Origin: Buttiauxella selenatireducens
GTDB lineage: Bacteria; Pseudomonadota; Gammaproteobacteria; Enterobacterales; Enterobacteriaceae
Assembly (NCBI RefSeq): GCF_031432975.1
Contig: NZ_CP133838.1
Span: 4,030,001-4,094,000 of the forward strand
Direction of reading: 5' to 3'
DNA length: 64,000 nucleotides
Shown piece by piece: positions 31,819 through 49,020 of this stretch (position 1 is the first letter of the stretch; each line of letters starts with the position of its first letter). A program made the translations under genes and the position numbers. The notes below the pieces were generated by a model that was not told where the DNA came from, ran no database searches, and was given only the letters and a program-made list of their open reading frames with translations.

Positions 31819-32370
31819 TCAGTGGCCAGGGAAAAGTACGAGGCTGTAGCTTTTCACGCCCATTTTTTCCAGACGCTGCTCACCACCAATATCAAACAGA
31901 TTGATGATAAATGCGGCATCGGTCACTTCACCACCCAGACGGCGGATCAGTTTAACGGTCGCTTCAATGGTGCCGCCTGTGGCCAGCAAATCGTCCACGA
32001 CCAGAACTTTGTCGCCCGGCTCGATTGCATCAACGTGGATTTCCAGTTGATCGGTACCGTATTCCAGCTCGTAGTTCTCCGCGATCGTTTCGCGTGGCAG
32101 TTTACCTGGCTTACGCACCGGCACAAAACCAACACCTAATTCCAGCGCAACCGGCGCGCCAAACAAAAAGCCGCGCGCTTCAGTACCCACTACTTTAGTG
32201 ATACCGGCATCTTTAAAGCGTGAGACTAATAATTCGATGCTGGTGGCGTAGGCTTTCGGATCTTCAAGCAAGCTGGTAACGTCACGGAATAAGATCCCAG
32301 GCTTCGGGTAGTCTGGAATGCTTTTAATGCTGTTTTTCAGATATTCAAGCTGCTGCGCAGTCGCGGTCAT
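31819..32370 (-). CDS. apt: Adenine phosphoribosyltransferase
   Basis: Apt converts adenine and PRPP to AMP in purine salvage. The 183 aa protein matches the family length. It has [15 protein letters not shown] in the middle and the PRPP-binding loop [13 protein letters not shown] near residues 123-135. It lies upstream of dnaX on the same strand, as in E. coli. Confidence 0.98.
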
Positions 32371-44749: not shown

Positions 44750-45208
44750 ATGACCGAAATTCAGCGCCTGCTCACCGATACTATCGAGCAACTTAATACC
44801 GATGAAAAACGCGACAACCGTCCACGTTTTAGCATCAGCTTCATTCGCAAACATCCGGGCCTGTTTATCGGTATGTGGGTAGGTTGGTTTGCCACACTGT
44901 GGGTAATGCTGGAGTCGGACACCCTGGCAGGCTCGGTCTGGTTACTGGTGGTTCTGTTTGCATTACTGAATGGCTTCTTCTTTTTTGATGTGAACCCCCG
45001 CTATCGTTACGACGATATTGATGTGCTTGATTTACGCGTTTGCTACAACGGCGAGTGGTACAACACGCGCAACGTCCCATCGACGTTGATTGATAAAATC
45101 CTGCATTCCCCTGGTGTTGACGAACAACAAAAATCGCTACTGCATAAAATGGTTGCCACGAAAGGCGAACTCTCTTTTTACGATATCTTCTCACTCGGGC
45201 GTTCTTAG
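44750..45208 (+). CDS. ylaC: Inner membrane protein YlaC
   Basis: A 152 aa protein of unknown function with two hydrophobic segments (about residues 37-58 and 63-80), then a soluble part with [22 protein letters not shown] and [10 protein letters not shown]. It is closely similar to E. coli YlaC (156 aa). The start MTEIQRLL agrees with the E. coli protein, and GAAGG lies before it. It converges with rpmJ2. Confidence 0.92.
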
Positions 45209-45227
45209 CCTTCCCGAGTTGTAAAGA

Positions 45228-45245
45228 AAGGGGCTTAAGCCCCTT
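45228..45245. terminator. Bidirectional terminator between ylaC and rpmJ2
   Basis: AAGGGGCTTAAGCCCCTT is a perfect 18-bp palindrome between the convergent stops of ylaC and rpmJ2. It is GC-rich and short, with TGTCTT after it on the plus strand and CTTTAC on the minus. Confidence 0.65.
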
Positions 45246-45248
45246 GTC

Positions 45249-45389
45249 TTAACGTCGCTTCTTCCCGCCCTGCACCGCTTTAAACCGCGGATTACTTTTG
45301 CAAATCACATACAGCCGTCCTTTGCGTTTTACAATCTGGCAATCCGGATGACGCTGCTTTGCACTGCGCAATGAATTCAGAACCTGCAT
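45249..45389 (-). CDS. rpmJ2: Alternative ribosomal protein L36 (zinc-independent)
   Basis: A 46 aa protein, [20 protein letters not shown]...[15 protein letters not shown], clearly the YkgO/L36B paralogue. It has two cysteines (HPDC and VICK) but not the full four-ligand zinc set of normal L36. Such paralogues replace the zinc-binding version when zinc is scarce. In E. coli it follows rpmE2 (ykgM); no rpmE2 is present here. A candidate Zur site lies just upstream. Confidence 0.93.
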
Positions 45390-45405
45390 AACCTTCGCTC
45401 TCATT

Positions 45406-45425
45406 TAAACGTTATAACATAACAA
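45406..45425. promoter_or_regulatory. Candidate Zur box upstream of rpmJ2
   Basis: On the minus strand TTGTTATGTTATAACGTTTA contains the palindromic centre GTTATAAC and the ATGTTATAAC block common to enterobacterial Zur sites. It lies 17-36 bases before the rpmJ2 start codon. Zur control is known for the ykgM-ykgO operon in E. coli; here it is inferred. Confidence 0.5.
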
Positions 45426-45508
45426 TAAAATAAAGAGTGAACGGAAAAATTGCAAGCCCGTTTGCCAACAAAACCCTCCCAGGCGTCAATATCCAGATTC
45501 TGCAAATG

Positions 45509-45538
45509 CTTAGAACCCCAACTCGCCATAACTTAGAA
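45509..45538. promoter_or_regulatory. Direct repeat CTTAGAA x2 upstream of the poly-Cys ORF
   Basis: CTTAGAA occurs at 45509-45515 and again at 45532-45538, spaced 23 bases start to start, roughly two helical turns. Such a pair could bind a dimeric activator of the operon starting at 45620; a sulfur regulator of the CysB/Cbl type would be the first guess. No motif match to a named regulator is claimed. Confidence 0.35.
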
Positions 45539-45619
45539 GATAACAATATTGGGCGGCGAGACAGGCTTGCGGCAATGTCATTTCCACGAACACATCTTCA
45601 TTCCAGAAAGGGACAAACC

Positions 45620-45763
45620 ATGATTCAGCGCTGTTGTTGTCGAGGCAAATGTTGTTGTGCCAAAAAATCAGAATTCGTCGGGAAATTATTTGTCTTAAGC
45701 GGAGTTCATCATGAACCAAACAACGACCCAGGCCTTGCCAATACTCGATCTCTTAGCCCTTAA
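45620..45763 (+). CDS. Poly-cysteine leader peptide (small ORF)
   Basis: A 47-codon ORF starting MIQRCCCRGKCCCAKKSEF. Codons 5-7 and 11-13 are all TGT, giving two Cys-Cys-Cys runs. AAGGGA lies six bases before the ATG, a better ribosome binding site than many genes here have. It overlaps the next gene: its stop (45761-45763) lies 50 bases inside the oxygenase gene in another frame, so a ribosome translating it passes over the oxygenase ribosome binding site (GGAG, 45701-45704). Poly-Cys small ORFs upstream of sulfur genes are known as cysteine-responsive attenuators in mycobacteria. A role here as a cysteine sensor is inference; a metal-binding peptide is an alternative. Confidence 0.65.
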   Translation: MIQRCCCRGKCCCAKKSEFVGKLFVLSGVHHEPNNDPGLANTRSLSP

Positions 45764-46748
45764 TGGCACAGCCACCGACAGGGCGGCATTTCTTAAACAA
45801 TTACGCCATGCCGCTCGTGACATCGGTTTTTTCTACCTGATTAATCATGGTGTCAGCCCTGAACTGCAACAGGCCGTTCAGAATGAAGCGCGACTCTTTT
45901 TCTCTTTGCCCGAAGAGGAAAAACAAAAAGTGGCGATGATCAACTCCCCTCATTTTCGTGGTTACAACCGCGCCGCCAGCGAATTAACACGCGGCAAACC
46001 AGACTGGCGTGAACAGTTTGATATCGGCGCTGAACGCCCGGCACTTCCGGTCAATGACGCGCAGCACGGTTGGCTGCGATTACAAGGCCCAAATCTGTGG
46101 CCAGAATCGTTACCGACTCTGAAACCTACCCTGTTGCAATTTCAGCGCGAAATGACCGCTGTCGCACTCAAACTACTGCGTACTTTTGCGCAGGCGTTAG
46201 AACTTCCAGCGAACAGCTTCGATAACCTGTACGGCAATAAACCCAACGAACACATCAAGTTGATTCGCTATCCAGGCCTGCAGGCTACGGAGGGTAATCA
46301 GGGTGTCGGCGCCCATAAAGATTCAGGATTCCTGAGTTTCCTGTTGCAAGACCAACAGCAGGGTTTGCAGGTCGAAGTCTCGCCGGATAACTGGATAGAT
46401 GCCGCCCCTCTGCCTGGTAGTTTTGTGGTGAATATCGGTGAATTGCTGGAGCTTGCCACCAATGGCTATTTACGGGCGACGGTACATCGGGTTATTTCCC
46501 CACCGCCGGGCCAGGAACGCCAGTCGATTGCATTTTTCCTCGGCGCTCAATTAGACGCTGTCGTCCCGGTTTATGCATTGCCGCCTGAACTCGCACAACA
46601 CGCTCATGGGCCTGAAAGCGATCCTCGCAACCCGTTACTGCGTGATGTTGGATGGAATTATCTAAAAGGTCGCCTACGTTCGCATCCCGACGTGGCGGAA
46701 CGTTATTACCCGGATGTCTTGCGTAACAGCACTGAACTCATCGCTTAA
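45711..46748 (+). CDS. Isopenicillin N synthase-family 2-oxoglutarate/Fe(II) oxygenase
   Basis: A 345 aa non-haem iron oxygenase. The N-terminal DIOX_N domain has DIGFFYLINHGV and the C-terminal jelly roll carries the iron ligands His and Asp in GAHKDSGFLSF and the distal His in RATVHRVISPP, then Arg-x-Ser in RQSIAFF for 2-oxoglutarate. The substrate is unknown. It starts after GGAG (six-base gap) and overlaps the poly-Cys ORF. It heads an apparent operon with a MetQ/N/I-like transporter, which suggests oxidation of an imported sulfur compound, perhaps a thioether or sulfonate. Confidence 0.87.
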   Translation: MNQTTTQALPILDLLALNGTATDRAAFLKQLRHAARDIGFFYLINHGVSPELQQAVQNEARLFFSLPEEEKQKVAMINSPHFRGYNRAASELTRGKPDWREQFDIGAERPALPVNDAQHGWLRLQGPNLWPESLPTLKPTLLQFQREMTAVALKLLRTFAQALELPANSFDNLYGNKPNEHIKLIRYPGLQATEGNQGVGAHKDSGFLSFLLQDQQQGLQVEVSPDNWIDAAPLPGSFVVNIGELLELATNGYLRATVHRVISPPPGQERQSIAFFLGAQLDAVVPVYALPPELAQHAHGPESDPRNPLLRDVGWNYLKGRLRSHPDVAERYYPDVLRNSTELIA

Positions 46749-46766: not shown

Positions 46767-47576
46767 ATGAAAAATGCCTCTTTTAAACTGGCAGGGATCG
46801 CGCTGTCTTTGACTCTGGCTTTCAGCGCTCACGCAGCAGAAACCTTGCGCATCGCGGCTGATGCAGTACCCCATGCAGAAATCCTCGCGTTTGTGCAAAA
46901 GCTCGATCCGAATTTAAAGCTCAAAGTGGTTGAGTTGAGTAACGGCGTAAATGCCAACGAATTGCTGGCGAACGGCGATGTCGATGCTAACTATTTCCAG
47001 CACGTCCCCTATTTGCGCGATCAGGAAAAAGCGCTGGGTAAAAAATTCACCGTCGCGGCGACCGTGCATATCGAACCGCTTGGTATCTATTCACACAAAT
47101 ATAAAGACCTGAAGTCGGTTCCCGAAAACGCCACCATTGCCCTGCCGAACAACGTGACCAACTTGAGTCGCGCACTCTATCTTTTGCAGGACAAGGGGCT
47201 TATCACGCTGAAATCAGAATTTAAAGATGCCTCGGTGAATCAAGCCACGCCACGTGATATCGCCAGCAATCCTAAGAATCTGAAGATCGTTGAGATCGAA
47301 GCACCACAACTGCCGCGTTCGCTCGATGATGTTGATCTGGCCGTAATCAATGGCAACTACGCGCTGGAGGCTGGATTAACGCCGTCGAAGGATGCGCTGG
47401 GGCTGGAAAGTGCGACGCACAATCCGTACGCCAATATTCTGGTCACCAATCCAAACCTGGCTAATGATCCGCGAATCAAAGAGTTGGCGAAAGATCTGCA
47501 ATCTCCACAGGTTGCTGAATTTATTCGCCAGCAATTCAACGGCTCAGTGATCCCGGTCGCCACTCCGCAATCATGA
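46767..47576 (+). CDS. MetQ/NlpA-family substrate-binding protein
   Basis: A 269 aa periplasmic binding protein of the NlpA/MetQ family, recognisable by [42 protein letters not shown] and [19 protein letters not shown]. The signal peptide ends [10 protein letters not shown], a signal peptidase I site with no lipobox cysteine, so the protein should be soluble in the periplasm, unlike the lipoprotein MetQ. AAAGGAAA precedes the start. Its stop overlaps the ATPase gene by 4 bases. The ligand may be a methionine-like or other sulfur compound; the sequence does not settle it. Confidence 0.88.
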
Positions 47577-48364
47577 TTACCCTCGAGCGGCTGAGCAAAG
47601 TGTACGCCGGAGCAGGCCAACCGGCACTGGACGATATCTCGCTAACCGTACCGGATGGCGCAATCTACGGCATTCTCGGGCGCAGTGGCGCCGGGAAAAG
47701 TACCTTGATTCGCTGCTTAAACTTACTGGAACGGCCCACATCGGGCCGTATTCTGATGAATGGAGTGGATATCACCACGCTTGATAACCGTGAATTGCGC
47801 ACTCATCGCCAGCGCACCGGCATGGTGTTCCAGCACTTCAATCTGATTCATGCACGCACTGTGGCTGACAACATTGCCGTGCCGCTGGAAATCACCGGCC
47901 AGCGGCGTGAGGTTCGCCAGAAACGCATTGCAGAACTGCTCGAGTTAGTCGGCCTGAGCGATAAAGCGCAGGCTTTCCCCTCACAGCTTTCTGGTGGGCA
48001 AAAGCAACGCGTCGGCATCGCTCGGGCGCTTGCCGCGCACCCTGATGTCTTGCTTTGTGACGAAGCAACCAGCGCATTAGACAGCGAAACCACCGCTTCT
48101 GTGCTGGCACTATTAATGGATATCAACCGTAAGCTGGGGGTCACGATTGTGCTGATTACTCATCAACTGGAGGTCGTGAAAGCGATTTGCGATCACGCAG
48201 CGCTACTGGAAAACGGCAGGCTAATTGAAAGCGGTTCATTATCAGAATTGCTGGCTACCCCCTATTCCCGTCTTCGTCAGGCATTGCTGCCTGGCGACGC
48301 CGCCGAACAAGCATTTTTACGCCGGATTGGCGTATCCGGGAGAGTGTTATGCGAAGTCGCTTAG
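47573..48364 (+). CDS. MetN-like ABC transporter ATPase
   Basis: A 263 aa ATPase with Walker A GRSGAGKS (about residues 38-45), signature LSGGQKQRV, Walker [10 protein letters not shown] and a TH switch. MetN of E. coli is about 343 aa and ends in a C-terminal domain that binds methionine and inhibits transport; this protein stops before that domain. It should therefore lack methionine feedback. It overlaps the upstream binding-protein gene (ATGA) and the downstream permease (16 bases). Confidence 0.9.
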
Positions 48365-49020
48365 CATGGGAGGATTTATGGCCATTACTGCTTGATGGCA
48401 CCCTCGATACGCTTTACATGGTCGGGCTTGCGGCGTTGTTTACCGTGATTATCGGTTTACCGCTTGGGGTATTACTGTTTCTCACTCGTCGCGACGGAGT
48501 GCTACCCGCGCCGGTCTTCAATCAGATTATTGGCAGTGTGGTGAATGTCGGGCGTTCACTGCCGTTTATTGTGCTGTTGATTGCCTTAATCCCATTCACC
48601 CGCATTATTATTGGCACCACGTTGGGCAGTACTGCGGCGGTGGTTCCCATTACGATTGGCGCATTTCCGTTTTTTGCGCGAGTGGTGGAAAACGCATTAG
48701 ATGAAGTCGACAAAGGCCGCATCGAAGCCATTTTATCGATGGGTGGCAATGTCTGGCATATCATCGGAAAAGTGTTGTTACCCGAGGCGCTACCGGCTCT
48801 GCTGGCGGGGATCACACTCACAGTAGTGATGTTGATTGGGTTTTCGTCAATGGCGGGCGTGATTGGCGGCGGTGGGCTGGGGGATCTGGCGATCCGTTAC
48901 GGTTACCAGCGATTTAACGATCAGGTCATGGTCGGCACGGTGGTGATTTTAGTGGTGATGGTGCAATTAGTACAAAGTGTCGGTGACCGTTTAGTACGCC
49001 GTCTGGCACACCGACGTTAG
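48349..49020 (+). CDS. MetI-like ABC transporter permease
   Basis: A 223 aa inner-membrane permease with about five helices and the BPD_transp_1 coupling motif region ([33 protein letters not shown]). Similarity to MetI is clear, including the [25 protein letters not shown] segment. Its start lies inside the ATPase gene, so the two are coupled. This is the last gene of the operon that begins with the poly-Cys ORF. Confidence 0.9.

Follow-up and report, generated by a model that had tools for sequence, protein, structure and literature searches.

A candidate cysteine-codon leader before an oxygenase-transporter operon in Buttiauxella and other Enterobacterales

Introduction

How might a short ORF that is dense in cysteine codons influence an operon whose first gene it enters? 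The question is raised by a locus of Buttiauxella selenatireducens that lies in a stretch of 64,000 nucleotides (contig NZ_CP133838.1, positions 4,030,001 to 4,094,000), referred to here as the window. In attenuators of the trp and his type, the position of a ribosome on codons for the regulating amino acid sets the level of expression. The original prediction for this locus was that a leader with runs of cysteine codons senses Cys-tRNA and exerts translational control over a sulfur-type operon. The leader, its relatives and their predicted RNA folds were analyzed computationally, and the results are set out below with the alternative explanations on which they bear.

The leader ORF and its surroundings

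The leader extends from an ATG at 45620 to a TAA at 45763 and encodes MIQRCCCRGKCCCAKKSEFVGKLFVLSGVHHEPNNDPGLANTRSLSP. Two TGT-TGT-TGT runs within the first 13 codons of an ORF led by a ribosome binding site were confirmed, as was the claim that this ORF spans the ribosome binding site and ATG (45711) of an oxygenase gene (Table 1). The ORF list opens the frame at an upstream GTG, 45437; relatives conserve the ATG at 45620 as the start. The sequence TGTTGTTGT by itself is common, occurring at 75 places in the Buttiauxella genome. It is the recurrence of ORF, ribosome binding site, frame and cysteine run together before the same gene in many genera that sets the leader beyond chance, and it is almost certainly translated and under selection. 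The ORF has the clustered codons of one amino acid behind a ribosome binding site that mark a leader-peptide attenuator, and the operon that follows has a putative role in sulfur metabolism.

A terminator scan of 45400-45800 revealed no terminator-like site, in line with the original observation that the overlap has none, and the leader overlaps the gene. As no intrinsic terminator lies between the leader and the first gene, the leader was not classed with the classical terminator-type attenuators. An Rfam search of 45000-46200 gave no match above threshold and two matches far below it. The gene for a type B ribosomal protein L36 is located just upstream of the leader region on the opposite strand (45249-45404, -).

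Table 1. Positions in the window of the leader, the operon and the associated predicted elements.
Feature	Position	Strand	Remarks
Conserved block CATAACTTAGAAGATAACAATATTGG	45527..45552	+	Candidate promoter or activator site; putative role
Leader ribosome binding site AGGG	45609..45612	+	7 nt 5' of leader ATG
Leader ORF, 47 codons, 6 Cys	45620..45763	+	Overlaps oxygenase gene by 53 nt
First Cys run TGT-TGT-TGT	45632..45640	+	Codons 5-7
Second Cys run TGT-TGT-TGT	45650..45658	+	Codons 11-13; 45651-45658 predicted to pair with 45720-45727
Inner hairpin (predicted)	45671..45707	+	45671-45683 with 45693-45707; contains oxygenase GGAG, 45701-45704
3' arm in first oxygenase codons (predicted)	45720..45737	+	45720-45727 with second Cys run, 45732-45737 with 45641-45646
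2OG-Fe(II) oxygenase (PF14226+PF03171)	45711..46748	+	No Cys
MetQ/NlpA-family binding protein (PF03180)	46767..47576	+	No Cys, no Met after start
MetN-like ABC ATPase (ABC_tran)	47573..48364	+	
MetI-like ABC permease (BPD_transp_1/MetI)	48349..49020	+	

The operon and its sulfur-poor proteins

The description of the operon as an isopenicillin-N-synthase (IPNS)-like oxygenase gene followed by MetQ/N/I-like genes was borne out by domain matches. By these matches the first gene product is more precisely a 2OG-Fe(II)/IPNS-superfamily oxygenase, a label that names no substrate. The nearest solved chain, 9ovh, is named as an ethylene/succinate-forming enzyme and likewise gives no substrate. An IPNS-like oxygenase beside MegL features in part of one published account (PMC3228920) and provides a lead only. 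All three transporter genes are positioned 3' of the oxygenase gene in 77 of 80 loci, with low identity in Rouxiella.

Proteins that are made in sulfur starvation tend toward few cysteine and methionine residues. The oxygenase possesses no cysteine and two methionines beyond the start, and among 48 ORFs of the window (median 3.2%) the binding protein has the smallest share of sulfur amino acids and the oxygenase the third smallest, these ORFs being mechanical ORFs of at least 150 codons and not gene calls. The ATPase and permease are ordinary in this respect (2.7%). No cysteine occurs in 78 of 80 oxygenase orthologs, nor in any of the 75 binding-protein orthologs with 60% identity or more. The scarcity of these residues in the first two proteins is as expected of sulfur-starvation proteins. 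Since sulfur-poor versions of both proteins occur whether or not a leader is present, this property goes with the operon itself and is in keeping with the proposed sensor. The operon probably scavenges an organic sulfur compound. The MetQ-like protein, being devoid of cysteine, has no lipobox and should be soluble in the periplasm, unlike classical MetQ/NlpA proteins. Elsewhere in the window, the ORF at 31822-32370 (-) also is very sulfur-poor (0.55% sulfur amino acids, no cysteine).

Distribution of the leader among relatives

Eleven of 12 Buttiauxella genomes matched the leader stretch and the twelfth gave no match. The leader is open in all 11 loci, that of B. selenatireducens included, with a ribosome binding site, three to six cysteine codons and a stop at +53, and each has an AAGG-type site 5' of the leader. 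More distant loci were gathered in two sets that may share species. A contig scan gave 158 oxygenase relatives, of which the best 80 were kept. A family search located the oxygenase gene in 68 of 246 genomes, and removal of two partial matches, the own locus and two further Buttiauxella loci left 63. A Cys-run leader, defined by an ATG at -110 to -40, an SD and at least two cysteines within the first 12 codons, precedes the oxygenase gene at 57 of the best 80 of 158 loci and at 32 of the 63 loci from the family search; the other 23 of the 80 have no such leader.

After identical start regions were dropped, 74 distinct leaders were left. Among them are leaders from Klebsiella, Raoultella, Kosakonia, Phytobacter, Kluyvera, Trabulsiella and Pseudocitrobacter, and also from Cedecea, Dryocola, Franconibacter, Brenneria, Dickeya, Sodalis and one Serratia record. 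The original comparison was framed for Enterobacteriaceae; with the Brenneria, Dickeya and Sodalis loci, the leader reaches beyond the family in the narrow sense. No Cys-run leader satisfying the definition above was detected at the Pseudomonas, Erwinia, Pantoea, Rouxiella, Pluralibacter and Pseudescherichia loci examined, and blastn against the E. coli collection gave no match to the locus. On a quick tree of 125 oxygenases, the leader switched between present and absent at least eight times. In the one Klebsiella plasmid record examined, the leader sequence is present with no CDS assigned to it in a gene table that is known to be incomplete.

Second copies of the leader were sought within genomes. 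The own genome was searched with SD-ATG-CC patterns and AGGA/AGGG/GGAG sites, and in-frame matches were inspected by eye among the matches listed; none of the 20 examined made a persuasive leader for a gene downstream. In the 12 Buttiauxella genomes, SD-ATG-CCC patterns with AGGA/AAGG sites yielded nine further in-frame types by eye, and none of the five types examined, which were those other than MTSCCC, MMCCC, MTRCCC and MRSCCC, was convincing as a leader. The candidate MILCCC was rejected: it overlaps the beginning of a gene that we take to be bioH-like, in a different frame. Additional leaders with other start codons or ribosome binding sites may be present.

A block related to CATAACTTAGAAGATAACAATATTGG is situated 54-95 nt 5' of the leader ATG in 61 of the 74 leaders, as judged by three nested patterns, the least strict of which accepts any TATTGG. 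A promoter scan did not pick the block in the window. It is perhaps a binding site for a sulfur regulator. Similar blocks also precede the oxygenase gene at loci that lack a Cys leader, for example, L140 and L143.

Constraint on the reading frame and cysteine codons

A comparison across genera had been set beforehand as the means by which the proposal could fail, and the cysteine codons, the leader ribosome binding site and the frame all proved to be kept. The distance between the leader and oxygenase ATGs varies from 67 to 100 nt, and 72 of the 74 distinct leaders are in one frame relative to the oxygenase. On the quick tree, this distance underwent at least 19 length changes and only two phase changes. 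The untranslated spacer from the conserved block to the leader ATG underwent at least 27 length changes and 21 phase changes among the 61 leaders with the block. Two or fewer phase shifts in 19 changes have a probability of ~6 in ten million by hand calculation, if each length change is assumed to shift phase with a chance of two-thirds. At L100, the cysteine run is retained and a phase shift stops the ORF 35 nt before the oxygenase start; the sister locus L103 has the usual overlapping form, making L100 a natural variant for comparison.

A scan that was blind to cysteine identified an SD+ATG ORF at the leader position in 75 of 125 distinct loci, and 71 of these ORFs have at least two cysteines in the first 12 codons. 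In 22 representatives, 65 of the 242 residues at positions 2-12 are cysteine, as are nine of the 581 beyond, a share that is descriptive and not a test as the representatives were drawn from Cys leaders. Codon usage for cysteine alternates (185 TGT and 67 TGC), and some runs are broken by CGC or CGT. Apart from the cysteine run and the stretch that overlaps the oxygenase gene, leader peptides show little resemblance between genera, and this constancy of cysteine only suits a device that reads codons more than a functional peptide. Short cysteine-rich proteins, such as those that bind metals or thiols, do exist, and the leader product might be another of this kind. However, the dissimilarity between genera and the presence of only two cysteines in some leaders render this explanation scarcely credible.

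The four ORFs without a cysteine run from the blind scan came from two genera, read MLI(I/L)RLY..., and overlap the oxygenase gene. In a pattern search, MLIIRLYG.PVFIG or a near form was found in five of 295 family genomes, again in two genera and each time before the oxygenase gene (L129, L130, L140, L145 and L268), where it occupies the place and frame of the Cys leader with an unrelated but conserved sequence; the five comprise the four from the blind scan and one additional genome. This second type may serve the operon as a sensor of a different kind; it could be an arrest peptide or respond to some other signal.

Predicted pairing between the cysteine codons and the oxygenase start

When 20 leader folds were read by eye, the cysteine tract, often with the CUCC or CCGA that follows it, commonly paired with GGAG-N6-AUG of the oxygenase or with the codons just 3'. 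At least six expected pairs between the arm and start region are predicted in 61 of 74 leaders, and the cysteine codons take part in at least three expected arm pairs in 53 of 74. The latter value would suit an RNA element that acts by its structure, for example a thermometer, and codes for cysteine only incidentally. Yet the tract follows an ATG in frame, this ATG has its own ribosome binding site, the frame has been held through the length changes described above, the TGC-containing and CGY-interrupted versions preserve cysteine and not UGU repeats, and Rfam offered no match above threshold; an RNA element of this sort is most improbable.

Almost no arm is predicted in L028, L061, L063 and L065. 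The sister of the window, L013 (Buttiauxella sp. A111), also counts as armless, as scoring covered only the first cysteine run; in the predicted folds of both the window and L013, the first run is unpaired and the second is paired.

Three comparisons favored the native pairing, with relatedness handled only by the choice of representatives. In a swap test with 22 representatives, which used three oxygenase starts that were corrected for the opening-cost and later tests, the duplex energy was -16.8 kcal/mol for native pairs versus -15.3 kcal/mol for mismatched pairs (p 0.007). The cost of opening GGAG-AUG in 22 representatives was 8.56 kcal/mol for native sequences versus 7.50 kcal/mol for chimeras (p 0.0066). 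The best covarying register among 19, in 37 representatives, gave p 0.0035, and hand reading matched it to the Trabulsiella, Klebsiella and Serratia folds. The wider start site did not differ significantly in opening cost (11.30 native versus 10.88 kcal/mol for chimeras, p 0.19), and covariation of the last cysteine wobble base with its partner was not significant (Fisher p 0.12; independent pairs were uninformative).

Placing a ribosome on the cysteine codons lowered the cost of opening GGAG-AUG to 5.80 kcal/mol in the 22 representatives, the core being cheaper to open in 19, equal in one and more costly in two. For the wider site, the drop on stalling was 3.49 kcal/mol in native sequences versus 2.47 kcal/mol in chimeras (p 0.015). 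In the window, opening 45696-45727 is predicted to require 14.9 kcal/mol in the free RNA and 7.3-9.7 kcal/mol with a ribosome at any of four cysteine codons, and the gain at the core (45701-45713) is small, at 7.9 kcal/mol free versus 5.4-7.0 kcal/mol stalled. The pairing of the cysteine codons with the oxygenase start region, a new feature of the leader, is a prediction, and the balance leans toward the hairpin acting as a switch.

One alternative is occlusion alone, in which the oxygenase ribosome binding site is blocked by ribosomes moving along the leader and left open when they stall, the pairing being incidental. This was the original view of how ribosome position exposes or covers GGAG, and it stands insofar as 70 of 74 leaders extend across the oxygenase start to a stop 32-62 nt within the gene; the several leaders that almost lack an arm also accord with it. 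It would be incomplete in that the cysteine codons are predicted to pair with the start, for which the native partners were favored in the three comparisons above. Moreover, the other four leaders, ending at -35, -22, -22 and +4, stop before or at the oxygenase start and still hold the cysteine run. Occlusion as the sole principle is therefore unlikely. Given the predicted pairing of the cysteine codons with the start region, a stalled ribosome would probably open the site and not merely leave it uncovered.

A proposed mechanism of control by cysteine

The evidence is best accommodated if the leader acts in cis as a translational attenuator that senses cysteine, to which we assign a probability of about 0.7. 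That the leader responds to Cys-tRNA, through stalling that would follow cysteine shortage, is very likely. When Cys-tRNA is ample, ribosomes would cross the cysteine codons fast. The Cys-codon RNA (UGUUGU...) behind the ribosome would pair with the oxygenase start region, and ribosomes that read through would travel over the oxygenase ribosome binding site and stop ~50 nt inside the gene. Pairing and ribosome passage would both hold oxygenase translation low. When Cys-tRNA is scarce, a ribosome stalled on the cysteine codons would sit on the 5' arm of the hairpin, freeing GGAG and AUG for a second ribosome and raising oxygenase production. The transporter would rise with the oxygenase by coupling or by relief of polarity.

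Polarity enters differently if leader translation decides Rho-dependent termination in or after the leader. The absence of an intrinsic terminator-like site is compatible with this possibility, and Rho has been suggested for actinobacterial Cys leaders in the excerpted account of these operons (PMC1262725). However, an early stall would bare the downstream RNA and favor Rho unless the oxygenase was translated, which is the wrong direction for induction, and Rho polarity is accordingly rated as quite improbable. The original proposal of a leader that senses Cys-tRNA and controls translation of a sulfur-type operon is partly supported, with cysteine shortage as the presumed inducing condition.

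Attenuation of this kind would add a direct Cys-tRNA sensor to sulfur control in enterobacteria, and would hint at the function of the operon. It makes the sharp prediction that a few codons let cysteine limitation turn the operon on. More tentatively, the locus may represent an Enterobacterales Cys-tRNA switch in which the cysteine codons double as sensor and as anti-start strand of the sequestering hairpin, placed before a sulfur-scavenging operon with two proteins nearly free of sulfur, and in which unrelated leaders have replaced each other as sensors.

Comparison with known systems

A literature search of open-licence PMC papers found no Cys leader in Enterobacterales; Pos19, as excerpted in PMC5036791, was set aside. 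Two systems share some of the features described here. The upstream ORF uORFC-8-2, which precedes cysS in Rhodobacterales, has a conserved tandem pair of cysteine codons in which TGC and TGT alternate, as in the present leader (PMC8632094). In contrast, the excerpted description of uORFC-8-2 proposes an intrinsic terminator, places the cysteine pair at codons 14-15, and has a tRNA synthetase gene as the target (PMC8632094); the leader studied here has neither a position before cysS nor a terminator stem. The leaders of actinobacterial cys and cbs operons possess runs of cysteine codons and no conserved terminator hairpin, as observed here, but the runs are near the leader stop codon, Rho is the suggested factor, and a start-region hairpin as predicted here is not among the features in the excerpted description (PMC1262725).

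Compared with transcription attenuators of the trp and his type, the leader has the logic of ribosome position in common, but lacks a terminator and has its predicted switch at a translation start. The closest parallel is with the mycobacterial polycysteine short ORFs of Canestrari et al. in 2020 (Mol Microbiol 114:93), in which stalling of a ribosome reportedly releases a ribosome binding site that is otherwise sequestered. Both systems place consecutive cysteine codons in a short ORF ahead of genes with a known or putative role in cysteine or sulfur metabolism, and neither has a terminator. The mycobacterial ORFs are leaderless, belong to Actinobacteria and are present at several loci, whereas the ORF described here is led by an SD site, overlaps the gene and occurs in Enterobacterales, with an oxygenase-MetQNI-like operon as the target and no second leader copy seen in limited searches. 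The SD site before the leader argues against a leaderless transcript, and the leader is therefore not filed in the mycobacterial leaderless class. Instead, the enterobacterial leader is viewed as polycysteine attenuation in a new form, in which a response to cysteine would be exerted at the start of the oxygenase gene.
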